Source: Cytophagaceae bacterium (lineage in GTDB: Bacteria; Bacteroidota; Bacteroidia; Cytophagales; Spirosomataceae). From it: DNA of 64,000 nt. Within the stretch, counting starts at the first letter, position 1, and each line of letters starts with the position of its first letter. The DNA lies in NCBI GenBank assembly GCA_947460975.1, contig CANHGO010000001.1, positions 1 to 64,000 on the forward strand. The letters are read 5' to 3'. The position numbers and the translations under genes were made by a program. Of the stretch, positions 3,576-21,810 are shown one piece after another. Below the pieces are notes generated by a model. It saw only the letters and a program-made list of their open reading frames with translations. It was not told the DNA's origin and searched no databases.

Positions 3576-6500
3576 ATGTTAAAAATGAAATTTCAATTTA
3601 CTTGGTTACTTATTGTTTTATTTCTTGCCTCATGCGAGAAAAAAAAACATCTATTTATTAAAATTCCAGCATCTGAATCAGGCCTAAATTTCATAAATAA
3701 AATTGCAGAAAATGAGAAGGAGAATTTTACCGAATTTTCTTACATCTACAATGGTGGAGGCGTGGCTGTGGGCGATATAAATAACGACGGCTTACCTGAC
3801 TTATATTTTTCAGGAAATCAAACGGGAGATAAGCTATTCCTAAATAAAACAGAAAAAAATGGTGAAATAAAGTTTGAGGATATAACGAAAACCGCCCATA
3901 TTCAACAAGGCGGCTGGAGTACTGGTGTAACGATGGCTGACGTGAATGCGGATGGAAAACTTGACATATATGTTTGTAAATCAGGCGTTCATGGGGCAAA
4001 ATCCAGAGAAAATCAATTATACATCAATCAAGGAAATAATACATTTTTAGAACAGGCTAAGGCATATAACCTTGCCGACACGAGCTTTTCAACTCAAGCC
4101 GCATTTTTTGATTTTGATCATGATAATGATCTTGATGTTTTCATCATAACCAGCGAAAACAACACAAAAAATCCGATGGAATTAAAAGAAATATCGGAAT
4201 ATGACCATATGGTTTCGGGAGATAAACTTTACGAAAATCTGGGAAACAATACCTTCAAAGACATTTCAAGGCAAGCTGGAATTTTTCATCAAGGAATGAG
4301 TTTAGGCTTGTCTATTGCAGATTTTAATAACGACGGATGGGAAGATATTTTTGTAGGGAATGATTTTTTAGCCAATGATCTTTTGTATCTCAACAATAAA
4401 AACGGGACATTTTCGCAAACAGCCAATCAATCCATGGCCCATCATGGACAATTTACAATGGGTTCAGATGCTGCCGATATCAATAACGACGGACTTTTAG
4501 ATTTGTTAACCGTAGACATGATGCCATCCGATTATTCGGCGCTCAAAAAAATGGCCAATCCATCGAATAATTATTATTTTGAAAAAAGTAAAACCTTGGG
4601 TTTCCATCCACAATTTATGAGAAATATGCTTTTTCTTAATCAAGGAAATTATGGTCTTAATAAGCTCAATAGTAGTGTTCCGCGATTTTCAGAAATTGGG
4701 CAATTTGCCGACATTCATCAAACTGATTGGAGCTGGTCCCCGCTCATTGCCGATTTCGACAATGATGGCAAAAAAGATATATTTATTAGTAACGGATACC
4801 TTAGAGATATCACCGATTTAGATTTTATAACAGGGAACATAACTTTTGCCGAAAAAAATCAAGGACAAAATGTTAAAAATTACATGAAGGAAAATGCTAA
4901 AAAAATGCCTTCTATATCGAAGAAAAATGTTTTTCATAAAAACATTGGTGACAATTCATTTGAAGATATGAGCAATTTTTGGCTTGAAAACGAACCTTCA
5001 TTATCTAATGGTGCTGCTTACGCAGATCTTGACAATGACGGCGACCTCGATATAGTCGTTAACAACATGAATCAATTGGCTTATATTTATCAAAATCAAT
5101 CAACGAACAACTATTTGTCTGTAAAAATCAATGGCTTAGATCAAAATCAACTGGCAGTTGGTGCAAGGGTAGAACTTTACAGCAATCATACCAAACAAGT
5201 TTTATACCAGAATAGCACAAGAGGCTTTCAATCCTCAAGCACCAATATACTTCATTTTGGATTAGGCCAGGCTACCAAAATCGACTCTGTGTATGTTCGT
5301 TTAGGCAACAAGAAAATTTCGGTAAAGAATCCTAAAATCAATCAACAGTTGACAATTAACCTATCTGATGCTCAGGAGGCAAATGAAATTCCATTTAAAA
5401 CTGAATTTTTATTCTCAGAATCTTTCTTCAAAAACAATTTTAAACACGACGATATTCCATTCACAGATTTTTCTACTGAACCATTGTTGCCACACAAATT
5501 ATCTCAAGAGGGACCAAAACTGACAAAAGGCGACGTCAACGGGGATGGTTTAGATGATTTTTTTGTGGGCGGGGCCTACAAACAAAGTGGCGTATTTTTT
5601 ATTCAAAAGCCCAATGGAGAATTTGAAAAAAAACCACTTCTCAATTCTGTAAAAACCAAAGAGGAAGAAGATACAGATGTAGAATTATTTGATTTTGATA
5701 ACGATAAAGATCTTGACCTATACATTGTCAGTGGTTCGAATGAATATTTTGACGGATCAGCGTTTTATCAAGATAGGCTTTATACAAACGATGGAAAGGG
5801 TAATTTTAAATTATCCTTACTCCTTCCCGAAATCAGAAATGCTGGCTCGGTAGTGGCAATGACCGACTTTGACAAAGATGGAGATCAAGATATATTTAGA
5901 GGTGGTCGGGCTATTCCTACCCAATACCCTAAGCCTGGCATTAGCAGATTGCTTACAGGCAATAATGGTCGTTTTGTTGACAATACAAGTACTATTTGCC
6001 CTGAATTACGAGAAATTGGGATGGTTACAGACGCAATCTGGGTTGATTTAGATAATGATACTTGGAAAGACCTCGTAATAGTAGGAGAATTAATGGAAAT
6101 TTCCATTTTCAAAAACGTAAGGGGGAAACTTCAAAAAAGTGATTTTGGGAAAAAAACCTCGGGTTTTTGGCGATGCGTTAAAGCCCATGATATAGATAAA
6201 GACGGAGATTTAGATTTGATTTTAGGTAATCTAGGAACCAATATCTCGGTCAAAGTTTCCCAAGAAAAGCCTTTTAAAGTTTATGGAGGAGATTTTGATT
6301 CTAATTCAATTTGGGATGCCATATCAACGAATTATTGGGGCGAAGTAGAATATCCGGTTCATGCTTTTGATGATTTACGCCGACAATTACCTTCACTTCG
6401 AAAAAAATTCCAAACATTCTCCTCGTACTCAAACGCCAGTATCTCTGATATTTTATCAGAAAGTGACATTAAAAATTCGATGATTAAGAAAGCGGCAAAC

Positions 6501-6872
6501 TCTCAAAGTTTGGTTTTGATCAATCAAGGCAATTTCAAATTTACGTGGGTAGCTCTTCCGCAAGAAGCTCAATGGGCGCCCGTGAATGATATTTTGGTTA
6601 TAGATATCAATGGGGATGGTCTTGATGACCTTGTAACCCTAGGCAATGATTACGGAATTGAATCTTTTACAGGGCAATACGATGCTTCCTATGGCACTGT
6701 CCTTTTAAATGTTGGGAAAGGTCATTTTAAAAATATATCTTCTAATAAATCGGGATTATGGATACTGGGGGATGCAAAATCAATTATTCCTATAAATAGT
6801 AAGGGGAAAAATAAAAAGTTAATCATAGCCAGAAATAATCAAGATTTACAATTTTATTCGATCAAAAAATAG
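3576..6872 (+). CDS. Large FG-GAP/VCBS repeat lipoprotein with ASPIC/UnbV domain
   Basis: This 1098-residue protein starts with a lipoprotein signal (about residues 1-20; LASC lipobox), so it is probably anchored in the outer membrane. It contains many FG-GAP/VCBS blades with calcium-loop motifs, such as DINNDGLPDLYFSG, DVNADGKLDIYV, DFNNDGWEDIFVGND, DLDNDGDLDIVV and DVNGDGLDDFFVGG, forming two propeller blocks. Between the blocks, at about residues 512-585, is an ASPIC/UnbV-type segment (RGFQSSSTNILHFGLG). Such proteins are common in Bacteroidota near SusC/D genes, but their biochemical role is poorly known; surface adhesion or glycan binding is inferred. A second ATG three codons downstream could be the start without changing the signal peptide. 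Family call is firm, function weak. Confidence 0.88.
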   Translation: MLKMKFQFTWLLIVLFLASCEKKKHLFIKIPASESGLNFINKIAENEKENFTEFSYIYNGGGVAVGDINNDGLPDLYFSGNQTGDKLFLNKTEKNGEIKFEDITKTAHIQQGGWSTGVTMADVNADGKLDIYVCKSGVHGAKSRENQLYINQGNNTFLEQAKAYNLADTSFSTQAAFFDFDHDNDLDVFIITSENNTKNPMELKEISEYDHMVSGDKLYENLGNNTFKDISRQAGIFHQGMSLGLSIADFNNDGWEDIFVGNDFLANDLLYLNNKNGTFSQTANQSMAHHGQFTMGSDAADINNDGLLDLLTVDMMPSDYSALKKMANPSNNYYFEKSKTLGFHPQFMRNMLFLNQGNYGLNKLNSSVPRFSEIGQFADIHQTDWSWSPLIADFDNDGKKDIFISNGYLRDITDLDFITGNITFAEKNQGQNVKNYMKENAKKMPSISKKNVFHKNIGDNSFEDMSNFWLENEPSLSNGAAYADLDNDGDLDIVVNNMNQLAYIYQNQSTNNYLSVKINGLDQNQLAVGARVELYSNHTKQVLYQNSTRGFQSSSTNILHFGLGQATKIDSVYVRLGNKKISVKNPKINQQLTINLSDAQEANEIPFKTEFLFSESFFKNNFKHDDIPFTDFSTEPLLPHKLSQEGPKLTKGDVNGDGLDDFFVGGAYKQSGVFFIQKPNGEFEKKPLLNSVKTKEEEDTDVELFDFDNDKDLDLYIVSGSNEYFDGSAFYQDRLYTNDGKGNFKLSLLLPEIRNAGSVVAMTDFDKDGDQDIFRGGRAIPTQYPKPGISRLLTGNNGRFVDNTSTICPELREIGMVTDAIWVDLDNDTWKDLVIVGELMEISIFKNVRGKLQKSDFGKKTSGFWRCVKAHDIDKDGDLDLILGNLGTNISVKVSQEKPFKVYGGDFDSNSIWDAISTNYWGEVEYPVHAFDDLRRQLPSLRKKFQTFSSYSNASISDILSESDIKNSMIKKAANSQSLVLINQGNFKFTWVALPQEAQWAPVNDILVIDINGDGLDDLVTLGNDYGIESFTGQYDASYGTVLLNVGKGHFKNISSNKSGLWILGDAKSIIPINSKGKNKKLIIARNNQDLQFYSIKK

Positions 6873-6968
6873 AGACTCTTTATTTAGGAATTCTAAATTT
6901 TATCGAGTAAAATAATTTGACTAAACTTGAACTGAAATATCATGCAAACCTTCAATTTTGAAAATAAA

Positions 6969-7964
6969 ATGAGACTATTAATCAAACCATTTTTAATCCT
7001 ATTTATTTTCACAAACCCATTTAGTGTTTACTCACAAGTTCGACCATTAGAAAAGGCTAAGCAGCAAAAAGGATATTTTGTTCCTGTGATCGATGGGGAT
7101 TATGTCCACATCTATGATCCCAAAGGGGATCTATTCACAGGTCCGGACACAAAAGATTTAAAAGCGGGAGAATATTATCCCCTATGGCAAACCAATGATC
7201 ATTGTTTTATAAAAGGGCCAGATAAACGCTGGCATTCCTTCGGGATCACACACCCGGCATCAGCTCTAGGTCAGTCTCGTCATCAGGGTGAATTTGCCTC
7301 TTTCCATGCGGTATCAGACACAAAAACGCTTGAAAGCTCATTCAGGCAGAATTCATGGATTGATAAGCCCAAAGTGCTTACTCCAGCCCAGCGTCCCGGA
7401 GAGGGTAATTCCAACCATGCCCCAACCATTGTCAAACAAAGTGGGCTTTTCAAAATGATCTATGGACCTATCCCTTTTCGAATGGCAATTTCAAAGGATT
7501 TATTTGACTGGAAGCCGCAAGGACCTATTCAGATCAATGAAAAGTATGGCCGCGATCCGAGCTTAATGGTCTGGAAGGATACGTACTATTTAGTTTATTG
7601 CTCCGGTAACGTCGTTAAGGCGTCCACATCCAAAGACTTGAAGAACTGGTCAGAACCGGTAGAAATTTACAAAGGGGACGTTGAATCATTCCAATGCGAG
7701 TCACCAACCATTGTACCATATGACGGTAAATTTTATCTTTTCTGGTGCCTTTGGGACACCGCTAATAAAAATGGTAACGGATATGATGAGCGTTCATTTG
7801 TGTATGGTTCTGATAATCCCCTTGATTTCCATGGGAGCCCATTACTTACGGAACTAGCTACTCATGCACCGGAAATATTTCAAGGAGAGGATAAACAGTG
7901 GTATATTTCGAGTGCTCAATATCCTAACAGGGGGGTAAATGTCGCCCGCTTATCCTGGAAATGA
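6969..7964 (+). CDS. Secreted GH43/GH32-like five-bladed beta-propeller glycosidase
   Basis: The preferred start is the ATG at 6969 because it puts the signal peptide (MRLLIKPFLILFIF...VYSQ) at the N-terminus; the upstream ATG at 6942 would add nine residues before it. The mature part of about 310 residues repeats the blade pattern of clan GH-F/J propellers: GRDPSLMVWKDTYYLVYCSG, CESPTIVPYDGKFYLFWCLW and HAPEIFQGEDKQWYISS. The aspartate in the RDPS motif and the glutamates in CESP and APEI are candidates for the acidic triad. Its neighbours are an FG-GAP lipoprotein and a PQQ-type sugar dehydrogenase, all on the same strand. Bond specificity (arabinosyl, xylosyl, fructosyl or other) cannot be assigned. 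Confidence 0.75.
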   Translation: MRLLIKPFLILFIFTNPFSVYSQVRPLEKAKQQKGYFVPVIDGDYVHIYDPKGDLFTGPDTKDLKAGEYYPLWQTNDHCFIKGPDKRWHSFGITHPASALGQSRHQGEFASFHAVSDTKTLESSFRQNSWIDKPKVLTPAQRPGEGNSNHAPTIVKQSGLFKMIYGPIPFRMAISKDLFDWKPQGPIQINEKYGRDPSLMVWKDTYYLVYCSGNVVKASTSKDLKNWSEPVEIYKGDVESFQCESPTIVPYDGKFYLFWCLWDTANKNGNGYDERSFVYGSDNPLDFHGSPLLTELATHAPEIFQGEDKQWYISSAQYPNRGVNVARLSWK

Positions 7965-7992
7965 TTGTAATGATTAGTTTAATTCGACTCAC

Positions 7993-10776
7993 ATGAATTT
8001 TAGAATTGCTTTAATTTTAATTGCTTTTTTTACCCAATTAAATGTTGGAATTTGTCAGCGCGCAGATATAAAAAATGCTGCCCAATCTGTGAGTCATTTA
8101 ACAGATGACCTGAAAAAGCCAGAGGCGAATAGATTCACCAAAGTGGTGTTGGCCAAGAATCTCGACGAGCCCATGCAAATGGAGATTTTGCAAGATGGTC
8201 GGGTATTTTTTGCTGAGAGAAAAGGGAGACTAAAAGTTTATGACCCGACGACTAAACAGGTTCATATAATAGCCGAAATTCCCGTTCGGCACACGTTTGA
8301 TGGAATAAGCGCTGGAGGGACAAACGAATCTGAAGATGGCATCCAGGGCGTCTTACTAGATCCAAACTTTACGCAAAACCATTGGATCTATTTATATTAT
8401 TCACCGCTAAAGGGCCCGCCCAGAAATGTATTATCCCGCTTTGAGTGGAACGGCGGCAAGTTAAATAAGGAATCAGAAAAAATATTGCTCGAAATTCTGG
8501 TTGACCCTTCTGTTTGTTGCCATATTGGCGGAGGAATGGCATTTGAAACGAAGGGAAATCTTCTTCTTGCTACCGGGGAAAATGGACAGACCAGTGGTGG
8601 ATTTTCGACGATTGATGAACGTCCAGGACATAGCAATGCCGATGCTCAAAAATCATCCGGTAACACGAATGATCTTCGGGGAAAAATCATTCGCATTCAT
8701 CCAGAACCGAATGGCACCTATACGATTCCAGAGGGAAATCTTTTTGCGATAGGCACCCCTGAAACCCGTCCAGAAATTTATGTCATGGGAGTCAGAAACC
8801 CATGGCGACTCAGTGTCGACAGCAAAACCAGTTGGCTCTACTGGGGCGAAGTGGGTCCGAATGGCGCCAACGACGTTGAGGAACGAGGTCCTAGAGCATA
8901 CGATGAATTTAACCAGGCCCGGAAAGCTGGAAATTTTGGATATCCTTATTTCGTTGGCGATAATAAAGCGTATCGACGCTATGACTTTGCATCAGGAAAA
9001 TCAGGGGATAAATTTGATGCGAATCATCCTGTCAATCATTCTCCAAATAATACCGGCTTAGTTAATCTACCACCTGCACAGCCAGCTTTCATCTGGTATC
9101 CTTACGCAGTTTCAGATACATTCCCCAAATTGGGGAGTGGAGGCATGAGTGCTGTTGGCGGACCCATTTACCGACGAGCTAATTTCCAAAAGGCCAAGCG
9201 ACCTTTCCCTAGCTACTACGAAGGAAAATGGTTTATAACGGACTGGGTGCGAGGCTGGATCATGGTGGTCACCATGGATGAAAATGGGAACTATGCCTCC
9301 ATGGAACGGTTCTTGCCTGAGGTAAAACAATATGGAGATATCGACATGGACTTTGGCCCTAATGGGGACTTGTATGTGCTGGAATATGGCATAAACGTAT
9401 TTAAAGGTAGTCCTGAATCCCAACTAGTTAAAATTGAATATAATAGCGGTAACCGCGCGCCCATTGTACAGGCATCCGCAAATAAAACCGCAGGGGCAGT
9501 TCCACTAAAAGTTCAGTTATCTGCCGATGGGTCTAAAGATGATGATTTGGATCCCATTACGTATGAATGGAAAATAACATCCCAAGGCAAAAAAATTCAG
9601 ACATTTAAACAGGCTAATCCAACGGTTACATTTACAAAGCCAGGGATTTATAAAGTTGCGCTACATGTAAGGGATACACAAGGAGCAAAAAACACTAAGT
9701 ATATGGAAATTGTCGCAGGGAACGAACCTCCTTTAGTCAAATTTGATTTTAAAGGGGCAAACAAAAGTTTCTATTCCCCAGGCAAAACAATTAATTACTC
9801 CTTAATAGTTAGCGATAAGGAAGATGGAAGTCTTAGTAACAATCAAATTAATCCTTCCCAAATATCAGTGAGTATTGATTATCCAGAAGGATTTAATCTT
9901 TCTGAAATTCAACAAATGCGATGGGATAGTAACGTACCCATGAAGTCCGTATTGGCTAACCAACTAATTAATAAAAGTGATTGTCAGTCTTGTCATTCTG
10001 TTCTATTAAAATCCATGGGTCCCTCCTATTCAGAAATAGCAAAAAGATATCAGGGAGATGTTAGTGCACAAAATCGATTAGCAAAAAAAATCATTGCTGG
10101 TGGCAATGGCTCCTGGGGAGATTTTATGATGCCAGCCCATCCTGCACTGTCAGAAACGGATGCAAATACCATTGTAAAGTACATTTTAACCATTGGAGAA
10201 CAAATTAAGACTAAATCCTTGCCATTGACAGGAGCCTATAAAACAGATGCTCCTGAGGGCGAAAAAGATAAAGGTTTCTTTGTCTTTAGAGCGGCTTACA
10301 CGGACAAGGGAACTAAACTAGCTTCTGCACAAACTTCAGAAGATAAAATAATTTTGCGAAATTCTTTAGTTCCTATATCGCGGGTCGATCAATACAAGGG
10401 CGTTGAATTTAATCGGCAAATTTTCCTGGACAAATCAGATGTTACAGCCACAGCTTCTGGTTCCTTTTTGGGGCTTAACCAAATTGACCTAACGGGTATA
10501 AAACAGGTTGAGTTTACTGCTTCATCAATTTCAAGTACGAGCAACCATTCAGGATGGAGCATTGAAATCCGGATTGATTCTCCAACAGGGAAATTAATAG
10601 GCCAAACGTCAAATATTTTGTCTGAAAGTTATTATTTAAACCGGAAAGGGGAAAGAGTTAATGCGGTTCTGGGCCCAATTAATGAGGTGCATGATGTCTA
10701 TTTTGTATTTGCAAATAAAGAATCAAAGGATAAAAAAGAGCAAATCAAAGTGAAGGATATTAAATTTATTTGGTGA
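7993..10776 (+). CDS. PQQ-type glucose/sorbosone dehydrogenase with PKD, cytochrome c and C-terminal binding domain
   Basis: This is a modular exported enzyme of 927 residues. After a signal peptide (ends NVGICQ) comes a GSDH-type six-bladed propeller (about 45-480; FAERKGRLKVYDP, GNTNDLRGKIIRIHP, YVMGVRNPWRLSVD), the fold that binds PQQ and oxidises sugars. A PKD domain follows (about 490-575). Then comes a single-heme cytochrome c with CQSCH at residues 664-668 and a likely methionine ligand in MMP at 712-714. A C-terminal beta-sandwich resembling CBM6 (about 790-927) completes it. The cytochrome would pass electrons from the oxidised sugar to the respiratory chain in the periplasm. The enzyme ends a run of three closely spaced genes after the GH43-like propeller. 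PQQ use is family knowledge; no PQQ synthesis gene is visible here. Confidence 0.87.
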   Translation: MNFRIALILIAFFTQLNVGICQRADIKNAAQSVSHLTDDLKKPEANRFTKVVLAKNLDEPMQMEILQDGRVFFAERKGRLKVYDPTTKQVHIIAEIPVRHTFDGISAGGTNESEDGIQGVLLDPNFTQNHWIYLYYSPLKGPPRNVLSRFEWNGGKLNKESEKILLEILVDPSVCCHIGGGMAFETKGNLLLATGENGQTSGGFSTIDERPGHSNADAQKSSGNTNDLRGKIIRIHPEPNGTYTIPEGNLFAIGTPETRPEIYVMGVRNPWRLSVDSKTSWLYWGEVGPNGANDVEERGPRAYDEFNQARKAGNFGYPYFVGDNKAYRRYDFASGKSGDKFDANHPVNHSPNNTGLVNLPPAQPAFIWYPYAVSDTFPKLGSGGMSAVGGPIYRRANFQKAKRPFPSYYEGKWFITDWVRGWIMVVTMDENGNYASMERFLPEVKQYGDIDMDFGPNGDLYVLEYGINVFKGSPESQLVKIEYNSGNRAPIVQASANKTAGAVPLKVQLSADGSKDDDLDPITYEWKITSQGKKIQTFKQANPTVTFTKPGIYKVALHVRDTQGAKNTKYMEIVAGNEPPLVKFDFKGANKSFYSPGKTINYSLIVSDKEDGSLSNNQINPSQISVSIDYPEGFNLSEIQQMRWDSNVPMKSVLANQLINKSDCQSCHSVLLKSMGPSYSEIAKRYQGDVSAQNRLAKKIIAGGNGSWGDFMMPAHPALSETDANTIVKYILTIGEQIKTKSLPLTGAYKTDAPEGEKDKGFFVFRAAYTDKGTKLASAQTSEDKIILRNSLVPISRVDQYKGVEFNRQIFLDKSDVTATASGSFLGLNQIDLTGIKQVEFTASSISSTSNHSGWSIEIRIDSPTGKLIGQTSNILSESYYLNRKGERVNAVLGPINEVHDVYFVFANKESKDKKEQIKVKDIKFIW

Positions 10777-10948
10777 TCATTCAAGGTCTAATTAGTCTTA
10801 ATAAGGCCATGAATAATTATCTGAAAACCACTAACAATATTAAGTTAGGAGAAAACTTCTCAGCAAAAGTGTATGCTGGTAAAGGCGATTTAATCATCGA
10901 TTCTGACTTAAAAGGACTGAAAAAATAAACCTATTTAGCTTTTAAAAA

Positions 10949-12238
10949 ATGAAACAATACCAAGCAGGAATTAATCGACGTAATTTTCTGAAAATCACCT
11001 CGATGTCGCCCTTTGTTTTTGGAGCAAATTCAAATCATGGTGCGTCGCTGCAATCCATGCTAGCACCCGTTCGCAAAATCACAAAAGGCTCAAAATTTCA
11101 TTGGTTTGGGTATTATGATAAACTGCAGTTTGACCCGACAGGCCGCTATGTATTAAGTATGCAAGTTGATTTTGAACATCGTACACCAACAGCTCAAGAC
11201 ATAGTAAAAATTGGGATCATTGATTTGCAAGAGGGTGATCGTTGGACTGAAATAGGAACTAGTAATGCATGGGGGTGGCAACAAGGTTGTATGTTGCAAT
11301 GGGTTCCCAAATCAAATTCGGAAATTATTTGGAATAACCGAATTGATAATCAATTTGTCAGCCATATTTATAATGTAAAAACAGGACTTACTAGGACATT
11401 GTCTAAAGCAATATATACCATTAGTCCGAATGGGAAATGGGCTATTGGCACCGAGTTTTCACGTATTCAAGATCTTCGACCTGGGTATGGATATGCGGGC
11501 ATTCCTGATCCATTTTCGGAAGAGAAAACTCCCAAAGACATAGGATTATATAAAATAGATCTTAAAACCGGCAAAAGTAAAATGCTTTTTTCCATTGCTG
11601 ATATAGCCAAAATTCCTAGTAAAGGGCAATCCGTTGAAGATCAGTGGCATTGGTTTAATCATCTCTTAGTTAGTCCAGATTCAAAGCGATTTTTGTTCCT
11701 AAACCGATGGAGGGCTAAAAAAGATGAGCGTCAAAAAATGGCAATAGGAGGTTTTGTCACAAGAATGTTTACATGTGATTCAAATGGCAAAGACCTCTAT
11801 TGCATAGACCCCTCGGGCTTCAGTTCTCACTTTGTGTGGAAGAATAATGAACAAGTAAGCGTTTATACCAAACCTGAAGGAGAGGAAATGGGATTTTATG
11901 AAATTGAAGATAAAACAGGGAAATATAAAAGAATTGGAAAAGAAAAAATGCCAGTAAATGGCCATCAGACCTATTTACCTGTTGGAAACAAAATGGATTG
12001 GATTCTAAATGATAATTATCCTAATAGAGATCGTTTGCAAACACTCTATTTATATCATATTCCGACCGATAAACGAATCGACTTAGGTCAATTTCGTTCA
12101 CCCATCGAATATACAGGTGAATGGCGCTGTGACTTGCATCCCCGATTTAGTCCAGATGGCAAGAAAGTGGTCATTGACTCAACTCATGAAGGCGATGGAA
12201 GACAATTGTATTTAATTGATATTAAAAATTTGATTTAA
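10949..12238 (+). CDS. Tat-exported WD40/TolB-like beta-propeller protein of unknown activity
   Basis: The 429-residue protein begins with a Tat-type leader (INRRNFLKIT, about residues 8-17), so it is probably exported folded, perhaps with a bound cofactor or metal. The rest shows repeated propeller blades resembling TolB/WD40-like or oligogalacturonate-lyase-like folds: HWFGYYDKLQFDPTGRYVLS, TISPNGKWAIGTE, LLVSPDSKRFLFLNRWR and LHPRFSPDGKKVVIDS. I do not recognise a characterised family member. The next gene starts 18 bases downstream and encodes a pectate-lyase-like beta-helix, so the two are probably co-transcribed and may attack the same polymer. A lyase role is inference from fold and context only. 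Confidence 0.6.
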   Translation: MKQYQAGINRRNFLKITSMSPFVFGANSNHGASLQSMLAPVRKITKGSKFHWFGYYDKLQFDPTGRYVLSMQVDFEHRTPTAQDIVKIGIIDLQEGDRWTEIGTSNAWGWQQGCMLQWVPKSNSEIIWNNRIDNQFVSHIYNVKTGLTRTLSKAIYTISPNGKWAIGTEFSRIQDLRPGYGYAGIPDPFSEEKTPKDIGLYKIDLKTGKSKMLFSIADIAKIPSKGQSVEDQWHWFNHLLVSPDSKRFLFLNRWRAKKDERQKMAIGGFVTRMFTCDSNGKDLYCIDPSGFSSHFVWKNNEQVSVYTKPEGEEMGFYEIEDKTGKYKRIGKEKMPVNGHQTYLPVGNKMDWILNDNYPNRDRLQTLYLYHIPTDKRIDLGQFRSPIEYTGEWRCDLHPRFSPDGKKVVIDSTHEGDGRQLYLIDIKNLI

Positions 12239-12256
12239 TAATTAATTCAAAAAAAC

Positions 12257-13993
12257 ATGAAAAAAAGATGTTTATTGATCCTTTTAGTTGGGTCCTTCCT
12301 ATTGGTTTCTTTGGGAAATGTAATGAGTCAATCTGCATCCAAGACATCCTTTAAATTATCGCAGTTTAAGCCAAATGCAAATGGGAAATCAGATGATACG
12401 CCTGCATTTCAGAGACTTTTTGAAGCTGTTTCAAAGGTCGGCGGAGGAACGGTAACGATTCCAGCTGGTGAGTATTATGTATCAGGCTTAAGCTCGATTA
12501 GCCTACCATCTAATACTACGGTGTTTGCTTACGGTGCCAATTTTCATTTACCCATAACCTTGGGTGATCAAGCCAGGATTGTCGTATTTAAAGGCGAAAA
12601 TATTAAAAATTTCACTTGGTTTGGGGGTCATTTTGAAGGCTATTGTTTTGATCATCGCAATCCGCCAAATACGTGGGAGCCTAATGTGAATACTCGGATT
12701 TTTGTTATTTCAACGAGCGAATCGGGAAAAACAGATCATATTCTTTTTAGGGATGTTTCATCCAATAAAGTCGCTGGTGCAATTGTCAATATAGAGGGCT
12801 TTAAGAAAGTTCATGATTTGCCGACTGTTGAAAATTTTGCAACTAATGTATCCGTTGAGAATTGCACATTTATTGACTCAGGTAAATTCATGTGGGATTA
12901 TGGCCTGCTATGGCAAATAATTGTTTTTTCGGATGAATATACACCGGCCGATCTAGCGATGGCTAAAAAATATTTTAGGAATGATTTAATTAGATCGAAC
13001 TTGAAAATGAATGATGGGGATAATAAAATTTTGTTCGACAATAAACTAAACCCCATTTCAATCAGTAACTCTAATTTACCTAAGGATGCTGTTTGTTTTT
13101 TTGGTGATAAACTACCTGAAAATATAATTAAGGGGAAACAATATTTTATTGTGACATCCAATGAACAGTATATACAAGTAAGTGATCAACCCAAAGGGGA
13201 ACCTATTACTTTCAAGGGGAGCGCTTCGGCGACTCAAACCAATTTAATCTACAACCTACAAGATGCGTTTTATGTACTTTATGCACCCATAGGTTCAGGA
13301 CCTGGTAAAGGATGTATTGATTTAGTTGCTTGCAAAAATACTAGAATTACAGGTTGCAAAATAAGTGCTTTAGGTGATGCCATGCATATACACAGTTGCC
13401 ACAATAATATTTTCTCTAATAATCAAATATTAGGGGCCAGAATGGGTGCATTTTTTTTGGCAGAATATTCTAAAAATTCAAGCATTATAGGAAATACGGT
13501 CAATGGAACCAATGGTTCAAGAATCATGAGTATCGAACGTTCAAATGAAGATGTAACAGTCATAGGTAACACATTTAGAAATGGAGGAAGAGGAAGTTGG
13601 ATAAACCAACCCAAAAATCTGATCATGCAAGGAAACATTTTTATAAATAATACGACAAAATGTGATCCTGGTCCATGGATAGGGAGAAAAACCTTTAAAA
13701 CAGGCACTTGGGAAAGTTATTCTGAAATTTACTTCACTACCTATCAAAAAGGAGGTAAATACGGTCCAGTCATTTTAAAAGACAACATATTTGAGACAGG
13801 TCCTGGGGCCGCGGCAGCCATACAGTTTGAAAAAAATGGGGAAGATGTATTAGTAGAGGGCAATTTTTTTAAAGGCAATACAGGTGTCATTAATTTAGAT
13901 GCAGATGATAAGACCATTACGATTGGTAGGAATTTTGGTGCAAAAGTGATGGAAAGTAAAGATGGGGGGAAGTCTAAGTATAGAAATGAATAA
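12257..13993 (+). CDS. Secreted right-handed parallel beta-helix (pectate-lyase/GH28-like) protein
   Basis: The 578-residue protein carries a signal peptide (about 1-25, ending NVMSQ) and then the opening typical of pectate-lyase superfamily or GH28-related proteins: a DDTPAFQRLFEAV segment followed by GGGTVTIPAGEYYVSG. The C-terminal half has parallel beta-helix rungs with N/G turns (GNTVNGTNGSRIM, GNTFRNGG, MQGNIFINN, LVEGNFFKGN). The fold is shared by polysaccharide lyases, polygalacturonases and epimerases. A stretch at about 200-340 does not look like helix rungs and may be an inserted domain. It sits 18 bases behind the Tat propeller protein. Catalytic residues cannot be fixed, so the exact activity is open. 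Confidence 0.75.
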   Translation: MKKRCLLILLVGSFLLVSLGNVMSQSASKTSFKLSQFKPNANGKSDDTPAFQRLFEAVSKVGGGTVTIPAGEYYVSGLSSISLPSNTTVFAYGANFHLPITLGDQARIVVFKGENIKNFTWFGGHFEGYCFDHRNPPNTWEPNVNTRIFVISTSESGKTDHILFRDVSSNKVAGAIVNIEGFKKVHDLPTVENFATNVSVENCTFIDSGKFMWDYGLLWQIIVFSDEYTPADLAMAKKYFRNDLIRSNLKMNDGDNKILFDNKLNPISISNSNLPKDAVCFFGDKLPENIIKGKQYFIVTSNEQYIQVSDQPKGEPITFKGSASATQTNLIYNLQDAFYVLYAPIGSGPGKGCIDLVACKNTRITGCKISALGDAMHIHSCHNNIFSNNQILGARMGAFFLAEYSKNSSIIGNTVNGTNGSRIMSIERSNEDVTVIGNTFRNGGRGSWINQPKNLIMQGNIFINNTTKCDPGPWIGRKTFKTGTWESYSEIYFTTYQKGGKYGPVILKDNIFETGPGAAAAIQFEKNGEDVLVEGNFFKGNTGVINLDADDKTITIGRNFGAKVMESKDGGKSKYRNE

Positions 13994-14100: not shown

Positions 14101-17100
14101 ATGAGAGAAATCATTATTATATATGCGTGGATTCTTACTATGACCACTTATATATGTGCACAGACGGCAGTTAGCATACAGCAACAAGCCGACACTTCTT
14201 ATTCAAAAGATGACCATCATTCCCTATTTCTGGATCAAAAGTACTATTCAGGTTTCCGCAAAGCTGAATTTGTTGTTGATCCTGAGATATTTATTCATCA
14301 TACCGCCGAACGTGCTTTTATCGGCCCCGGAAGCTTTTTGTTTGACAATGGAGATATCCTTATGGCCGCTCCATGGGGTAGACCTCCAACTAATTTCGAA
14401 CAGCTTGCCGCAAAATTTCCGGTACCCATGTTCTACCGAAGCAAAGATGGCGGACGCACCTGGAATGAAGAAGGACGGATGAAAATGGCCTGGAATTTGC
14501 CGGGTATGATCAGTGATGGCGGGATTTCGTTTTTACGTTTAAAAGATGGTCGTCTGGCATTTTTGGCACATCGTCATGTGCAAGATTTAAAGGGGGGTGG
14601 ATTACCCATTATTTCATTTTCAGAAGATGATGGAAAAAACTGGACTCCAGCAAAACTGGTTGGCGAGCCCGAAGGAATTTGGTATGTAATGAACGACCGT
14701 CTAATTCAGTTGAGTAATGGCCGCCTTATTGTACCGGTCAGCCATATGACTCAGGGTTTGGGTAAATCCGAAGGCGATCATAATCTTGGACTTTGCTTTT
14801 TTAGTGATGATGGTGGTAAAACATGGGAAAAATCGCAAAAGCCAGCCGATTTAAACGATGGCCGAGGTATGGCAGAGCCATGCGTTGCCGAGACAGGAAA
14901 CAATCAATTGGTGATGCTGGCACGAACCGGAAGTGGGAGTGTATTTTGTTCACGTTCTAATGATGGAGGTGATACATGGTCCTCTCCGTCTCCGACAACT
15001 TTAGTTTCGGCATGCTCATCATTAACGCTTAAAACCTTACCCGATGGCCGTTTAATTGTTTTTTATAACCATGCTAAACCCATCAAGCAGGGAGCATTCT
15101 TCCCACGTACACCACTCGTGTATGCTGTATCTGAGGATAAAGGGATGACATGGGGGGAACCGGTAATTATTGATGATTCAGGAATGGACAAGAAAGACCG
15201 GCAGAATATTTATCCTACAATAAGCTTCACAAAGGAAGGAATGCTGGTGATATGGTCGAACCATGGTGCCGATCCCGGTGGGAGTTTTGCTGGTCAATAT
15301 GATGCCAATATTGGAGGTGGGAAACGTGCTATAATAGCAATGCCTGCCAAGACTTTTCCTAAAAATACGTCTAAGTCGAGTCTAAAATCCGCACAACTCT
15401 CCGAGCTTGCAATGCCTGCAGAAGAGCACGGAAAGTCCTATGACATCGTTGTTTTCGGCGGCACCTCCGGTGGTGTGGTCTCTGCTGTGCAGGCGGCCCG
15501 AATGGGAAAGAGTGTGATCATCGTAGAGCCGGGAAACCATCTCGGCGGGATGATGGCTAGCGGATTGAGTTGGAGCGATGTTGGGTCGGCCGAGCGAGCA
15601 AAACTTTTCGGAGGACTAGCGCGTGAGGTTTTTGAGCGCATCGGTAAATATTATGGTCAGGATCCGAAGACTGTTTACGATGTCACAGTGCCAATGGATG
15701 CTGAGCGGGCGAAGTCGGGGGTAGATTTCAACCGCCCACCGTCGCTAGCCTTTGAACCTAAAGTCGCGGAACAGGTCTTTATGGAAATGGCACGTGAAGC
15801 AGGAGTTGTCATACGATATGGCGCGCATCTGAAGTCCGTGCAAAAACAAGGTGCGCGGCTAACTCAACTCACGCTGGAAGACGGCACTTTCTTGAAGGCA
15901 CAGATGTTTGTGGATGCTACGTATGAGGGCGATTTGATGGCTGCGTCTGGCGTTAGTTATACACTTGGTCGCGAGTCAAATGATCAATACAGTGAGACAG
16001 GCAACGGCGTTCGCGGACCGTCACACGGACCGGCTAGTGGTCGCTTTATAGCACCTATCGATCCTTATGTGAAGGCAGGTGACCCCAATAGTGGCTTGCT
16101 TCCATTAATCTCCCGTGAAAAACTGGCACCGCTGGGATCGGCTGACAAACACCTACAGTCCTACAATTACCGACTCTGCCTTACGGACGACCCGGCATTG
16201 CGTGTGCCACTCGATCCGCCAAGCGACTTCAATCCTGCACATTGGGAACTACTCGGTCGCTACATTGTATCCCTTACGAACATGGGGCAGAAGATTACAT
16301 TAAGCTCATTTTGCAAATACGATCCACTGCCGAACCGCAAGTTTGACTTCAACAACCGTTGGCCCATCTCCACCGACCTACTTGGTGGTGCTGACGGTTG
16401 GCCAGAAGGCTCGAAAGCCGAACGTGCAACAATTGCAAAAACCCACGAGGATTATCTTCGTGGCTTATTTCATTTTTTGCGTACCGATTCCCGCGTGCCA
16501 AAGAATGTGCGCGAGGAGGCTTCACGCTTCGGTTTACCGCGCGACGAGTTCCCCGACAACGGACACTGGCCTCATCAAATCTATGTCCGGGAAGCACGAC
16601 GCATGGTTAGTGATCTCGTGATGAACGAGCACCACATTCGCAATGAATTTGTAGCACCAAACCCTGTCGCTCTAGCTACCTACCCGATGGACATCCACGC
16701 CGTACGCCGATTGTTTCATGACGGTAAGCTTTTCAACGAAGGTTTTGGTGAAGGCTTTGGCAAGCCTGCTCCCATCGGCTATGGTGCCATCGTTCCTAAG
16801 TCCTCCGAATGTGAGAACCTGTTCGTCACCTTTGCACTCTCCTCATCGCATGCAGCATTTGGCAGCATACGTATGGAGCCGGTGTTTATGGTCACTAGTC
16901 AGTCAGCGGCAACCGCTGCCAGCCTTGCAATCGATGAAAGGGTGTCCGTACAGCAGGTTAATCAACTCAAACTCCACACTCGCCTCCTCGCCGATGGTAC
17001 TATCCTTGAAAATTCTATGAGTCAGACAACTTTTCCAGTTGCTTCGGACCTGAGTAATAAGGGGATTTCTGATGAAACTTTAAGCCATGTTATTGTACCG

Positions 17101-18954
17101 GCTTCAGAGCAGTGGATGAGAAATGGTGAGGCATCGATCATTGAGCGACGCGATGGATCACTTTTGTTAATATATGGTGCACATCAAAAAAACGGAGATT
17201 GGGATCAAGGAGTGATTCGGCAGATTCATTCCACGGATGGTGGCAAGACTTGGTCAGCGCCCAAAACGGTTTTTTTCGATGAAAAACGTTCATTGTTTCA
17301 AGTATCATTAGTCAGATTAGCCAACGGAGAACTTGGCATGACACATACGTCACTGGCAAATGGCCGGGATGCTTTTAAGGTTTTTCGGCGCTCAACCGAT
17401 GAAGGCAGTTCATGGTCGGAACCAATAAAGATAAGTTCTAATTTACATCCTTATACAACTGGTCCCTGGGATAAGCTCTATGTGCTTGCGAGTGGGCGAG
17501 TCATCGCATTGTTGCACTGCAACCTTAAGCCGGATGCAATAAAGCAAGGTGGTCCTCTAGGAAGCTATGCGGTTTATTCCGATGACAACGGTCACTCCTG
17601 GCAACAAGCTCTTGCCAGCAACGTACTTTATGTTTCAGACAATCCAACAAATAAGCATGAATGGGGTTTTTGGGAACCATCGCTCGTGGAAATTATGCCA
17701 GGAAAACTATTAATGATGGCACGCACTGCTACGGGGTGGATTTGGGAAAGTCGCTCAAAGGACAATGGTAATACATGGAGTAAACCGAAAAAAACGAATA
17801 TACCAAATCCACTAGCTCCGCCAGTGCTGACCCGCATACCAGGCACAGATACCTTAATGCTTATCCATAATCCCGATGTTAATCTTCCAGAAAGCTGGCA
17901 TGGTGGACAACGCTCGGTTCTAGCCTTCCGCATTAGTACTGATGGCGGTCGTAAATGGTCTTCTGCAACCGATCTCTTCCAGTCATCTGATGAGCAAGAT
18001 TGGGTGGATTATCCTGCAGTACGTTGGATAAATGGTCAATTACATTTGGCATGGCGGCAATGGCGTCAGGATAAGTATGGCGGAAGAAGCATTTATTACC
18101 ATGTTCTGAGTAGTGAATCAACCGGACGAATTCTTAAAGTGATAAAAAATGAGGATGCTTCATCCACCAATAAATCTAAAGTTCTTCGCATCATGCCATT
18201 AGGAGACAGTGTCACACGCGGCACCTACTTGACAAAAAAAGAGGGACAAGCTACTGGCTTACCCAACCCCGATGGTGGTGGTTACCGTAAGCCTTTGCAG
18301 GATAAACTTCGTGCCGCCGGAATTGTCTTTGATTTTGTGGGTGACTTAAACTACAATGCATTTGGGAAAGATGGTATTATTGACCCTGGGTTTGATCCGG
18401 ATCACCATGGGTTGGCAGGTTTCGGCAATTATTCGATTTTGCGCGGAGGCGTTGTCCCAACCCCTAAAGATGTTCTTGCCGAAAAAAAGCTAGAGCAGAT
18501 TATCGTTCCGGGACTTGTGGAAGTGCTGAAAAAGCATAATCCTGATATTATTCTATTGATGTCGGGAGCCAATGGGTTCGACGCCACAGGTCGTGATGAA
18601 CTGATTCGAACCATCGGGGAGAATAGCCAAGCGCATCTTTTAGTTGCTACAATATTACCGCAAAAAATACCTAGAAATGGTTGGGAACAGGTAGACAATT
18701 ATAACGCATCGCTGCAGGCTGTTGTAGATGCTCTGCAGAAAGCTGGCAAACATATAACACTTGTCGATATGAATAAAGCTATAAGTGTTGAGAATCTGAT
18801 GCCTGATGGTGTACACCCTGACAAGTTCGCAATGGGAAATATTGCAGAGGTGTGGTTTGAATTAGTTATTCAAGAATTAAATACTTTCAAATCATTGAGG
18901 CCAAAGAATTATAAAATTAAAAAACAGGCTTATAATAAATTGAGTATTGAATGA
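14101..18954 (+). CDS. Giant fusion: sialidase + FAD-dependent oxidoreductase + sialidase + SGNH/GDSL esterase
   Basis: One uninterrupted 1617-codon frame with a signal peptide (ends TYICAQ) encodes four modules. Module 1 (about 30-430) is a sialidase propeller with Asp boxes near residues 113, 174, 235, 286 and 344. Module 2 (about 447-970) is an FAD-dependent oxidoreductase: a Rossmann glycine motif GGTSGGVVSA at 453-462, then LGGMMASGLSWSDVG, VDATYEGDLMAASG at about 604 and SHAAFGSIRMEP. Module 3 (about 990-1350) is a second sialidase propeller with Asp boxes near 1044, 1098, 1160, 1219 and 1279. Module 4 (about 1360-1600) is an SGNH hydrolase with GDS at 1368-1370 and a DGVHPD catalytic D-H block. 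The FAD segment is much richer in G+C than the rest, suggesting domain acquisition. It probably deacylates, cleaves and oxidises a glycan in the periplasm; substrate unknown. Confidence 0.85.
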   Translation: MREIIIIYAWILTMTTYICAQTAVSIQQQADTSYSKDDHHSLFLDQKYYSGFRKAEFVVDPEIFIHHTAERAFIGPGSFLFDNGDILMAAPWGRPPTNFEQLAAKFPVPMFYRSKDGGRTWNEEGRMKMAWNLPGMISDGGISFLRLKDGRLAFLAHRHVQDLKGGGLPIISFSEDDGKNWTPAKLVGEPEGIWYVMNDRLIQLSNGRLIVPVSHMTQGLGKSEGDHNLGLCFFSDDGGKTWEKSQKPADLNDGRGMAEPCVAETGNNQLVMLARTGSGSVFCSRSNDGGDTWSSPSPTTLVSACSSLTLKTLPDGRLIVFYNHAKPIKQGAFFPRTPLVYAVSEDKGMTWGEPVIIDDSGMDKKDRQNIYPTISFTKEGMLVIWSNHGADPGGSFAGQYDANIGGGKRAIIAMPAKTFPKNTSKSSLKSAQLSELAMPAEEHGKSYDIVVFGGTSGGVVSAVQAARMGKSVIIVEPGNHLGGMMASGLSWSDVGSAERAKLFGGLAREVFERIGKYYGQDPKTVYDVTVPMDAERAKSGVDFNRPPSLAFEPKVAEQVFMEMAREAGVVIRYGAHLKSVQKQGARLTQLTLEDGTFLKAQMFVDATYEGDLMAASGVSYTLGRESNDQYSETGNGVRGPSHGPASGRFIAPIDPYVKAGDPNSGLLPLISREKLAPLGSADKHLQSYNYRLCLTDDPALRVPLDPPSDFNPAHWELLGRYIVSLTNMGQKITLSSFCKYDPLPNRKFDFNNRWPISTDLLGGADGWPEGSKAERATIAKTHEDYLRGLFHFLRTDSRVPKNVREEASRFGLPRDEFPDNGHWPHQIYVREARRMVSDLVMNEHHIRNEFVAPNPVALATYPMDIHAVRRLFHDGKLFNEGFGEGFGKPAPIGYGAIVPKSSECENLFVTFALSSSHAAFGSIRMEPVFMVTSQSAATAASLAIDERVSVQQVNQLKLHTRLLADGTILENSMSQTTFPVASDLSNKGISDETLSHVIVPASEQWMRNGEASIIERRDGSLLLIYGAHQKNGDWDQGVIRQIHSTDGGKTWSAPKTVFFDEKRSLFQVSLVRLANGELGMTHTSLANGRDAFKVFRRSTDEGSSWSEPIKISSNLHPYTTGPWDKLYVLASGRVIALLHCNLKPDAIKQGGPLGSYAVYSDDNGHSWQQALASNVLYVSDNPTNKHEWGFWEPSLVEIMPGKLLMMARTATGWIWESRSKDNGNTWSKPKKTNIPNPLAPPVLTRIPGTDTLMLIHNPDVNLPESWHGGQRSVLAFRISTDGGRKWSSATDLFQSSDEQDWVDYPAVRWINGQLHLAWRQWRQDKYGGRSIYYHVLSSESTGRILKVIKNEDASSTNKSKVLRIMPLGDSVTRGTYLTKKEGQATGLPNPDGGGYRKPLQDKLRAAGIVFDFVGDLNYNAFGKDGIIDPGFDPDHHGLAGFGNYSILRGGVVPTPKDVLAEKKLEQIIVPGLVEVLKKHNPDIILLMSGANGFDATGRDELIRTIGENSQAHLLVATILPQKIPRNGWEQVDNYNASLQAVVDALQKAGKHITLVDMNKAISVENLMPDGVHPDKFAMGNIAEVWFELVIQELNTFKSLRPKNYKIKKQAYNKLSIE

Positions 18955-19169: not shown

Positions 19170-20765
19170 ATGCGTCCTAAAATATGTCTGTTCTTTAGCT
19201 TGTTTTTATTTTATAATGAGACTTTTTCTCAAACCAGTTATCCAATTATCCCTTACCCGAACAAATTGGTAGAAGCAGAAGGTGAATTTGAATTTAGAGG
19301 AAAATTAAGTTCCAATTTTGACATTGCCTTTAAATCCGAGATGAAAACAGTGGGTAAAATATTCGAAGAAGAATATTTTACCCGATTAGTCCCGTCAAAA
19401 AACGGCAATTTGGTCGTAAGGCAAAATAGCTTTTTGGGAAAAGAAGCTTATAAATTAACAGTTACCAAGAATAAAATACTTGTTGAAGCCTCAACCGGAA
19501 CGGGATGTTTCTACGCTTTCCAAACCATCCGCCAACTGATGAAACTGACAGTAAATGGCAGCTACAAGATTTCCTATTGCACCATTGAAGATAGCCCTGC
19601 CTATCCCTGGCGTGCCTTTATGCTCGACGAAGCCCGCAATTTTAAGGGAATGAAAGTAGTAAAAGATATACTAGATCAAATGGCCTTACTCAAGATGAAC
19701 ATTTTCCACTGGCACTTAACAGACGATCAGGGCTGGCGCATCGAAATCAAAAAATATCCCTTATTGACCGAAGTAGGCGCATGGCGCGACAGTACCCGGT
19801 TGAGGCAAATGGTTTGGCGCAACGATCGCTGGCATTGGGACGATTCGGGGGTTTATTCAAATCAATCCCAAGGAGGGTTTTACACGCAGGAAGATATTCG
19901 CAATATTGTGGCATATGCGGCGAAAAGGCATATAAGCATAGTTCCAGAGATCGAAATGCCTGGACACGCAATGGCCGCGATTGCAGCCTACCCTTGGTTG
20001 GTTTCTTCGGGTGAAAAAATAAAAGTGCCTTCGTCTCTTGGCATTAAAAAACTGGCTTATAACGTAGCCAACGAAAAGGTTTATACTTTTTTGGAAGATG
20101 TTTTGACCGAAGTGATGAATTTGTTTCCTGGAAAGATCATTCACATTGGGGGCGATGAAGTAAAGTACGACACCTGGAAGAATAATTCGGATGTGGAGAA
20201 ATTGATGAAGAAACAAGGATTAAAAACTTACCCTGATGTGCAGATATACTTTACCAACCGGATAGCCTCATTCATCCAAAAAAAAGGGTTTCGGATGATG
20301 GGTTGGAACGAGATAATGGGCAATGTCCATGTGGAGGAAGGTGAAAAAGTTGCCGAATCGCAGTTGGCAAAAAGTTCGATTATTCACTTTTGGAAAGGCG
20401 ACTCGCTTTTGGTTGCAGAAGCATTGGCTAAAGGATATGATGTTGTCAATGCCCGCAGTGTATATACTTATCTTGATTTTCCAGGAAAGCGTACGCCTAT
20501 AAAAACAGCCTATCAGTTTTCTCCGGCGCCCAAAGGATTAACGGCCGAACAGAGCAAACACGTGCTTGGTTTGGGTTGCCATATGTGGGGCGAGACATCT
20601 CCAACGGTCAAATTGATGCAAGGCTTTACTTTCCCTCGAATTGCAGCTTATGCTGAAGTAGGCTGGACAAAAGAAGCAAATAAGGACTTTGAACGATTTT
20701 CAAAAGTACTTTCAAATCTGAAATTGTATTGGGACAGAAAAGGTATTTATTATTTGGAGGAATAA
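19170..20765 (+). CDS. Beta-N-acetylhexosaminidase, glycoside hydrolase family 20
   Basis: The 531-residue exported enzyme (signal peptide about 1-21, ending ETFSQ) removes terminal N-acetylglucosamine or N-acetylgalactosamine from glycans. It has the GH20b domain (about 25-145) and then the catalytic TIM barrel. The family motif HWHLTDDQGWRIEIKKYP starts at residue 180, and HIGGDE lies at 325-330, where Asp329 and Glu330 are the substrate-assisted catalytic pair. MMGWNEIM and LGCHMWGE supply aromatic active-site walls. The length is normal and all key residues are present. Together with the two sialidase modules just upstream, it suggests attack on amino-sugar-containing glycans. A promoter-like pair precedes it, so it may be transcribed separately from the giant fusion gene. 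Confidence 0.95.
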   Translation: MRPKICLFFSLFLFYNETFSQTSYPIIPYPNKLVEAEGEFEFRGKLSSNFDIAFKSEMKTVGKIFEEEYFTRLVPSKNGNLVVRQNSFLGKEAYKLTVTKNKILVEASTGTGCFYAFQTIRQLMKLTVNGSYKISYCTIEDSPAYPWRAFMLDEARNFKGMKVVKDILDQMALLKMNIFHWHLTDDQGWRIEIKKYPLLTEVGAWRDSTRLRQMVWRNDRWHWDDSGVYSNQSQGGFYTQEDIRNIVAYAAKRHISIVPEIEMPGHAMAAIAAYPWLVSSGEKIKVPSSLGIKKLAYNVANEKVYTFLEDVLTEVMNLFPGKIIHIGGDEVKYDTWKNNSDVEKLMKKQGLKTYPDVQIYFTNRIASFIQKKGFRMMGWNEIMGNVHVEEGEKVAESQLAKSSIIHFWKGDSLLVAEALAKGYDVVNARSVYTYLDFPGKRTPIKTAYQFSPAPKGLTAEQSKHVLGLGCHMWGETSPTVKLMQGFTFPRIAAYAEVGWTKEANKDFERFSKVLSNLKLYWDRKGIYYLEE

Positions 20766-20902: not shown

Positions 20903-21787
20903 TTATAATTTATCAACAATATCCCCTTTCAATTTTCGATAATTGGTCGGATTTGTCCCCGTAATTTTTTTAAAAATATAGTTGAAATGGGTGAGATTGT
21001 TAAAACCGCAATCATAACAAATTTCAGAAATATTACGTGGGCTATCAAGGAGTAGTCGACACGCATAAGCGATGCGAATGTCATTGAGCAATTCGATAAA
21101 AGTCTTATTGGTTTTGGATTTAATGTATCTGCAAAATGCTGTTGCATTCATATTGGCTAAATTTGCGACCGTTTCAAGCGTTATTTTCTCCTGTAAGTGC
21201 TTATGGATATAACCCAACACTTGATTCATTCGATCAGAATCATTGATTGGCTTGGACTCTCCGAATATTTTCGTAGAGAGCGACCGGCCATCTTTGGCCT
21301 GCGCAAGAATTTTAAATAATTCTAAAAAATCAATGACTTGATCAATACCTCTCGCCAAATGTATTTTTTGTAAAATAGGTGTAACTCGATCTGAGGTAAT
21401 TTGGCTAAAAGAAATACCATGTGCAGCATCCTCAAATAATTGCTTAACCTCACGCATTTCAGGAATCTGTAACCATGGCTTTCCTAAAAAATCGAGTCGA
21501 AAACGGAGGATCATTGCTTCTGCCTTTTCAGTCGACTTGGGTTCATAATATATGGAATCATTTCGCCAATAATGTGGCAAATTGGAGCCTAATAAAACCA
21601 AATCTCCTTCATTGAACCGTTCGATATTATCCCCGACAAACCGAGTCCCTTTACTTTTTGTAATTAACGTAAGTTCAATTTCAGGATGATAGTGCCAAGG
21701 ATTATCAAAATAGGGCACTTTCTCATATCTGATATCGAATGATGCCGCATTATTTTCTAATACCTTCAACAACTTTGGCCTATTCAT
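20903..21787 (-). CDS. AraC-family transcriptional regulator with cupin sensor domain
   Basis: I place the start at the ATG at 21787 (294 residues); a TTG at 21808 would lie at the predicted transcription start. The N-terminal half is a cupin-like sugar-sensing domain (YFDNPWHYHPEIELTLITKS, RFNEGDLVLLGSNLPHYWRN). The last 100 residues hold two helix-turn-helix units of the AraC/XylS type (LETVANLANMNATAFCRYIK and ISEICYDCGFNNLTHFNYIF). It is transcribed away from the DUF1080-Gfo/Idh-isomerase-MFS-PhyH operon with a gap of about 155 bases, so it is the likely activator of that operon and perhaps of GH20. The inducer is presumably a sugar released by the exported enzymes. Confidence 0.93.
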   Translation of the reverse strand: MNRPKLLKVLENNAASFDIRYEKVPYFDNPWHYHPEIELTLITKSKGTRFVGDNIERFNEGDLVLLGSNLPHYWRNDSIYYEPKSTEKAEAMILRFRLDFLGKPWLQIPEMREVKQLFEDAAHGISFSQITSDRVTPILQKIHLARGIDQVIDFLELFKILAQAKDGRSLSTKIFGESKPINDSDRMNQVLGYIHKHLQEKITLETVANLANMNATAFCRYIKSKTNKTFIELLNDIRIAYACRLLLDSPRNISEICYDCGFNNLTHFNYIFKKITGTNPTNYRKLKGDIVDKL

Positions 21788-21810
21788 TTGCTTTTTATTT
21801 AAAGACAATG

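Follow-up and report, generated by a model that had tools for sequence, protein, structure and literature searches.

A single open frame joining two sialidase-fold propellers, an FAD-dependent oxidoreductase and an SGNH esterase module, and its two-module relative

O-acetylation generally makes Neu5Ac resistant to sialidases, and a fusion of an O-acetylesterase with a sialidase has been reported in Bifidobacterium bifidum (PMC10017367, section 14). In the sialidase RgNanH the active site includes Arg257, Arg575, Arg637, Glu559, Tyr677, and Asp282 (PMC4510645, in the part used here).

The gene described here lies in a 64-kb stretch of bacterial DNA, analysed as a whole and called the window (Table 1). 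It opens with ATG and runs for 1617 codons with zero internal stops, encoding, from N- to C-terminus, a leader-like stretch, a first propeller (S1), an FAD module, a second propeller (S2), and an SGNH module. The gene is a real single chain, with the identities and order of its modules confirmed; an earlier note on the same DNA had given its coordinates, continuous frame, and four ordered modules correctly. The same note counted five Asp boxes in each propeller, and the Asp-box pattern indeed matches at exactly ten places in the whole protein; 500 shuffles of the protein gave a mean of 0.02 matches and a maximum of 1. A chance open frame is ruled out by the ten boxes together with the full PF12831 profile. 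The N-terminus resembles a leader, as does the start of most S2-type homologues in the alignment, and the internal joints are free of leaders. An exported single chain, as the note proposed, is thus plausible as far as the N-terminus goes, and passage through the outer membrane is not supported.

Table 1. Features of the window, with positions, strand, and the evidence used for each.
Feature	Position	Strand	Basis
Polysaccharide-utilisation-type locus, upstream genes	91..13993	+	domain searches
Whole four-module gene (1617 aa)	14101..18954	+	continuous ORF and domain searches
Signal-peptide-like N-terminus, aa 1-21 (...YICAQ)	14101..14163	+	translation inspected by eye
S1, BNR_2 propeller, five Asp boxes	14164..15354	+	Pfam, Asp-box pattern, alignment
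Extra stretch (FAD module and S2), absent from L034	15339..18168	+	blastn, junctions inspected
FAD-dependent oxidoreductase module PF12831, aa 441-971	15421..17013	+	Pfam, composition, motif
S2, BNR_2 propeller, five Asp boxes	17026..18144	+	Pfam, Asp-box pattern, alignments
SGNH esterase module	18172..18873	+	solved-structure matches, Pfam, motifs
GH20 beta-hexosaminidase-type gene	19170..20765	+	domain search
AraC-type regulator with cupin domain	20903..21808	-	domain search

A search of genome contigs with the whole protein returned two loci, one of which, L034 (CAMBYC010000003.1, a MAG labelled Sphingobacterium thalpophilum AE-24oct19-149), carries a 683-aa gene (L034:8001-10052) with S1 followed directly by SGNH. 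By blastn, window 14088-15338 corresponds to L034 7988-9238 (S1, 86% DNA identity) and window 18169-18969 to L034 9282-10083 (SGNH, 83%); amino acid identities are 86% over S1 residues 1-418 and 80% over the SGNH module. Between these matches the window has 2830 bp (FAD module and S2) against a 43-bp linker in L034, and the two frames agree, the length difference of 2787 bp being 3 x 929. The earlier note had the FAD module inserted between the propellers; its position is right, but relative to L034 the insert comprises FAD module and S2, not the FAD module alone. From dN/dS relative to L034 (0.082/0.55, about 0.15, in S1; 0.117/0.561, about 0.21, in SGNH), both modules are judged to be under constraint. 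A third short match pairs window 14072-14214 with L034 6830-6971 (79%), and beyond these three a comparison of the 64-kb window with the 18-kb L034 locus gave no match at E 1e-5; therefore the two have the gene in common and not the locus.

Two small side observations may be recorded. The L034 segment of the third match is a 142-bp near-copy of the start of the S1-SGNH gene, upstream of a DHDPS-type gene, and is a remnant of either an insertion or a tandem copy. The motif TCTAA is found at each of the two outer joints (window 15360-15375 and 18165-18180) but is too short to speak for a mechanism.

Third-position GC (GC3) is 0.365 in S1, 0.524 in the FAD module, 0.368 in S2, and 0.385 in SGNH. 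An unsupervised search placed the best GC3 segment at aa 433-964, which coincides with the FAD module (GC3 of 0.524 there and of 0.364 over the other codons of the gene); 0 of 1000 codon permutations reached this value, and the 32 other genes of the window have a mean GC3 of 0.347 (sd 0.038, maximum 0.435). Because the FAD module alone deviates in composition, at least two fusion steps are likely, and the FAD module would have a history different from that of S2. The overall GC of S1, S2, and SGNH (0.44-0.45) exceeds that of the window (0.382), so the whole gene may stem from elsewhere. The most likely reading is a natural fusion built stepwise, with FAD module and S2 inserted in frame into the linker of an exported S1-SGNH protein; we infer that the change ran from two modules to four. 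The opposite course, with an ancestral four-module gene from which an in-frame deletion in L034 removed FAD module and S2, appears unlikely. S2 itself could have been in the chain for a long time, since its GC3 resembles that of S1 and SGNH, but the deviating composition of the FAD module alone fits a later gain of at least this module; no third relative to decide between gain and loss was found in the genomes searched.

A chimera of assembly or binning, joining separate genes of different organisms in one contig, would have to be reconciled with joints that are all in frame and within linkers, with a contig (C1) of 639 kb, and with stretches flanking the gene that match sister genomes. The sequences to the left and right of the extra block both match a single L034 gene, and a chimera would therefore need an in-frame detour and return. 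We regard it as very improbable, even though the assembly is a draft of 62.6% completeness in 9 contigs, presumably a MAG, close relatives of the modules are absent from the matches listed in the searched relatives, and the composition of the FAD module deviates. According to the earlier note, the modules turning up as separate genes would make the fusion an artefact. Stand-alone genes for FAD and for S2-type modules do exist elsewhere, as does a two-module S1-SGNH gene, but such occurrences may hint at how the fusion arose, not at an artefact, and an assembly error is unlikely.

In the searches for relatives, genome counts include the own genome and genome sets overlap. The whole protein matched in 109 of 149 related genomes, among the matches listed at full length only in its own genome and otherwise mostly through the FAD part (40-47% identity). 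The FAD module matched in 22 of the 38 genomes of the genus (next best listed 41-44% identity over most of the module), and FAD plus S2 in 126 of 395 genomes of the phylum (best FAD matches listed 44-47%). S2 matched at E <= 0.001 in 195 of 222 genomes of the family, a count that takes in remote propellers too (next best listed 143 bits, 30%), and S1-SGNH in 191 of the same 222 (next best listed 131 bits, propeller only). At class level, S1-SGNH matched in 79 of 395 genomes (next best listed 109 bits), and one weak listed match (G133, 27%) covers the SGNH part. No donor of the FAD module was found: among the matches listed, the best of the own phylum have 41-47% identity over most of the module, and shorter pieces reach up to 54% in that phylum; the best plasmid match has 42% identity, and viral contigs gave zero matches. 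Planctomycetota or Verrucomicrobiota as donor would be a guess.

Fusions of parts of this set occur elsewhere. SGNH-BNR_2 fusions were found in g16, another genus of the family, at seven loci in six genomes (L102, L108, L130, L132, L134, L136, and L137, of which L108 and L137 are the same gene), and both domains were confirmed in all three that were scanned. Two propellers share a frame in two loci, L098 and L101, the former confirmed by domain scan. Among 422 ORFs of at least 250 aa, compared by blastp with the window modules (which missed remote SGNH modules), only copies of the window gene have FAD and propeller in one frame. Propeller-esterase and propeller-propeller fusions thus recur, and the flavin module is the odd part; within the genomes searched, no other chain adds a flavoenzyme to an esterase-propeller fusion. 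Another association of PF12831 was seen in L003 (G000:C1, ~452895-454388) and nine listed sister genomes, where the domain follows, with no break in the frame, a part that by eye is a GMC-type oxidoreductase; the open frames measure 1169-1230 aa. A signal-peptide-like stretch stands at the joint, and the arrangement is either a conserved fusion or a pair of genes lacking an intervening stop.

S2 (aa 976-1356) scores 114.4 bits to BNR_2 (Pfam) and has its Asp boxes at aa 1044, 1098, 1160, 1219, and 1279. It can be called GH33-like, as the alignments retain the complete GH33-type set of six active-site residues: R1007, R1208, and R1271 as putative Arg triad, the pair E1192/Y1304, and D1033 as candidate acid/base, an assignment at sequence level in which R1007 is the least certain. 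The spacings (R-D 26, E-R 16, R-R 63, R-Y 33) can be set beside the 25, 16, 62, and 40 computed from the residue numbers given for RgNanH (PMC4510645). D1033 precedes the first Asp box by 11 residues, as does the consensus Asp of the S2 group. HMMER aligns this consensus Asp to NanA SDWGDIGMVIRRS, in which the aligned Asp is presumably catalytic, and direct phmmer alignment of S2 with NanI meets the same loop in a slightly shifted register. Structure prediction, proposed in the earlier note, agrees on the fold: Foldseek groups both the S1 model and the S2-SGNH model (mean pLDDT only 67.3 and 64.5, respectively) with sialidases, which largely make up their listed matches. For S2 the E values go down to 2e-19 (8gn6), with a TM-score by target of 0.71 to sialidase 1eus, and Dfer_1899 (5hx0, function unknown) is among the best matches of both models.

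S1 (aa 21-427) scores 133.5 bits to BNR_2 (Pfam), with Asp boxes at aa 114, 174, 235, 286, and 344. The GH33-type Glu, two later Arg, and Tyr are present (E259, R275, R336, and Y371, with spacings of 16, 61, and 35). The acid/base Asp is absent: Asn98 occupies the MAFFT column of D1033, Ala103 the place found by counting 11 back from the first Asp box, and L034 has the same residues there. Glu100, near this place, might be a candidate replacement for the Asp. MAFFT pairs R1007 of S2 with R53 of S1, a position occupied by Leu in L034; by eye alone, R71 can be picked as candidate first triad Arg, and this residue is kept in L034. S1 is firm as a sialidase fold and as fold only, because no Asp stands at the acid/base place, and S1 as a demonstrated sialidase was rejected on the same ground. 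The earlier note called both propellers sialidases; the residues of S2 fit a GH33-type sialidase, and the view of both as working sialidases is not supported.

The missing Asp of S1 would also suit propellers that serve as binding modules, with only esterase and flavin module enzymatic; alternatively, internal starts might give separate proteins, as Met437 and Met973 sit directly ahead of the FAD module and S2, respectively. Either is quite improbable: S2 keeps all six GH33-type residues, and the products of internal starts would be leaderless, whereas a leader-like stretch, judged by eye, opens 11 of the 12 stand-alone FAD homologues shown (of 61).

The SGNH module scores 27.0 bits to PF13472, below the curated cut-off of 32.9 (Pfam), and its assignment by homology relies on its matches to the solved esterases 2vpt (E 4.1e-8), 5b5s (E 1.4e-5), and 5b5l (E 1.5e-5) instead of on the Pfam cut-off. 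We take these three to be acetylesterases of CE3 type, a family known from xylan. Blocks I, III, and V are GDS (Ser1370), GAN (Asn1491), and DGVH (Asp1569, His1572), so that the terminal esterase with GDS and D-H blocks was described correctly in the earlier note. The SGNH half of the S2-SGNH model is poorly predicted, with low pLDDT, and no residue could be assigned as the oxyanion Gly of block II.

The FAD module matches PF12831 (FAD_oxidored) with 313.7 bits (cut-off 27) over profile positions 1-416 of 416, has the motif GGTSGG at aa 453, and keeps 70 of the 79 columns conserved at >=95% among 70 homologous ORFs, a set in which some ORFs are partial and overlapping loci contribute the same gene more than once. 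No close solved relative was found (best E 0.0016 over 83 residues). From its profile, the module is predicted to bind FAD and to transfer electrons. The action of this module on the same glycan, as the earlier note would have it, is not supported. Glucose/sorbosone dehydrogenase-type and cytochrome c domains also occur in two large proteins encoded in the window (7993-10776 and 31640-34717), which might serve as electron partners where sugar is oxidised outside the cytoplasm.

The upstream genes encode SusD, another BNR_2 protein, and FG-GAP/ASPIC, GH43-like, GSDH-cytochrome c with CBM6, PD40, and beta-helix proteins. The contig begins at base 1 of the window, with the SusD gene near its end (1-1410), and a SusC partner would lie beyond the contig. 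The SusD-type genes and the Sphingobacterium label of L034 point to Bacteroidota as the phylum. Downstream of the regulator are 3-keto-disaccharide hydrolase, Gfo/Idh/MocA, TIM barrel, MFS, and PhyH genes, which suggest some other sugar pathway. Two sister genomes keep the flanks but lack the four-module gene: in G027 (L174) eight bases separate the stretches matching window 13810-14003 and 21725-25570, and in G014 (L165) six bases separate those matching 10759-12238 and 21792-23212. Neither was accepted as a pristine empty site; both look like deletions, because a scrap of the AraC start remains (22 aa in G027; 17 nt in G014, where the match begins at 21792), and they may be deletions in a variable spot.

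A sialic-acid-like substrate, put forward in the earlier note, is suggested by neighbour genes in other genomes. In L034 the S1-SGNH gene has two more BNR_2 genes, an MFS, a mandelate-racemase-type, and a DHDPS-family lyase gene beside it, and the two BNR_2 neighbours have FRIP- or YRI-like starts, presumably a sialidase-type motif, and an Asp further along. In the sister genomes G017 (L176) and G004 (L177) the AraC homologue adjoins MFS, NanM-like, and NanA-like genes; the G004 epimerase passes PF24996 (119.6 bits, cut-off 45), and the best NCBIfam model of the G004 lyase is N-acetylneuraminate lyase (136 bits, under the cut-off of 281). Certainty is lowered by the NanA-, sialate-transporter-, and neuraminidase-type neighbours, whose NCBIfam scores lie far under the curated cut-offs, by the other sugar genes, and by the search of the own, 62.6% complete genome with the G004 lyase, which gave no match and was run without a positive control. 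The S2 group has the consensus PRNSEGD. That S1 and S2 represent uncharacterised propeller groups acting on another acidic sugar or on a plant or algal glycan is a considerable possibility, somewhat short of an even one. It would accord with how common S2-type homologues are in the family (remote propellers counted), with the GH43-like, beta-helix, and 3-keto-disaccharide genes nearby, and with the SGNH module being nearest to 2vpt, 5b5s, and 5b5l; the GH33-type residue set of S2 and the sialic-acid-type neighbours in L034, G017, and G004 speak for the sialic-acid-like substrate instead.

With such a substrate, the four-module protein would be exported, and its SGNH module would free a terminal acidic sugar of blocking O-acetyl groups. 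S2 would cleave this sugar by a GH33-like Tyr/Glu-Asp mechanism, and S1 would bind it or act on a related linkage. The flavin module might oxidise the released or newly exposed sugar, the weakest step of the scheme. The deacetylation and cleavage steps have precedent in view of the resistance of O-acetylated Neu5Ac and the B. bifidum fusion (PMC10017367, section 14). The window gene joins both module kinds of the O-acetylesterase/sialidase fusion enzymes, and is predicted to act as such a dual enzyme on O-acetylated sialosides. Taken together, a stepwise natural fusion with this proposed mode of action is reasonably probable. A flavin sugar oxidase coupled to desialylation, so that the cap is deacetylated and removed and the sugar oxidised within one exported chain, is a speculative proposal and rather unlikely; no described counterpart of an oxidative step built into a sialidase-type enzyme was found in the literature searched, and none of the titles or abstract openings there describes a sialidase-flavoenzyme fusion, most subscription journals lying outside the search. 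Comparison of the window gene with L034 indicates how a large chain of several enzymes can arise when whole domains of foreign origin enter a linker and the frame stays intact. Should the flavin module work on this same glycan, one exported protein would couple the hydrolysis of a sugar to its oxidation, and this would be relevant to the bacterial handling of acidic glycans that carry O-acetyl groups and to what the common PF12831 enzymes do.

Known systems resemble the window gene in part. The GH33 sialidases RgNanH, NanI (2bf6), NanA (2ya4), and that of P. gingivalis (8gn6) have the fold and Asp boxes in common with S1 and S2, and their Arg triad, Tyr/Glu pair, and Asp are matched in S2 by alignment and spacing; identity to the S1 and S2 models is 12-20% among the Foldseek matches listed, they carry FRIP where S2 has RNGE, and they have the acid/base Asp that S1 lacks. 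PF12831 oxidoreductases of the same phylum cover the whole profile, keep most conserved columns, and have 34-46% identity to the FAD module; they occur mostly in frames of ~550-740 aa without a propeller, and some in frames of up to 1230 aa, behind a GMC-type part. The L034 gene has the same S1 and SGNH modules in the same order, without FAD module and S2. The g16 fusions likewise have an SGNH esterase and an S2-type propeller in one chain, but in reversed order, in 600-646 aa and without a flavin module, and their SGNH part scores 82-86 bits to PF13472 against 27 in the window gene. The B. bifidum fusion, from another phylum, has deacetylase and sialidase in one chain like the window gene, and section 14 of PMC10017367 mentions no flavin module for it. 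The earlier note knew of no characterised enzyme with the four-module layout, which holds within our searches, a fusion of two of the activities being known from B. bifidum (PMC10017367, section 14). Esterase-sialidase fusions are thus already known; what is new, within these searches, is the added flavoenzyme and the second propeller.
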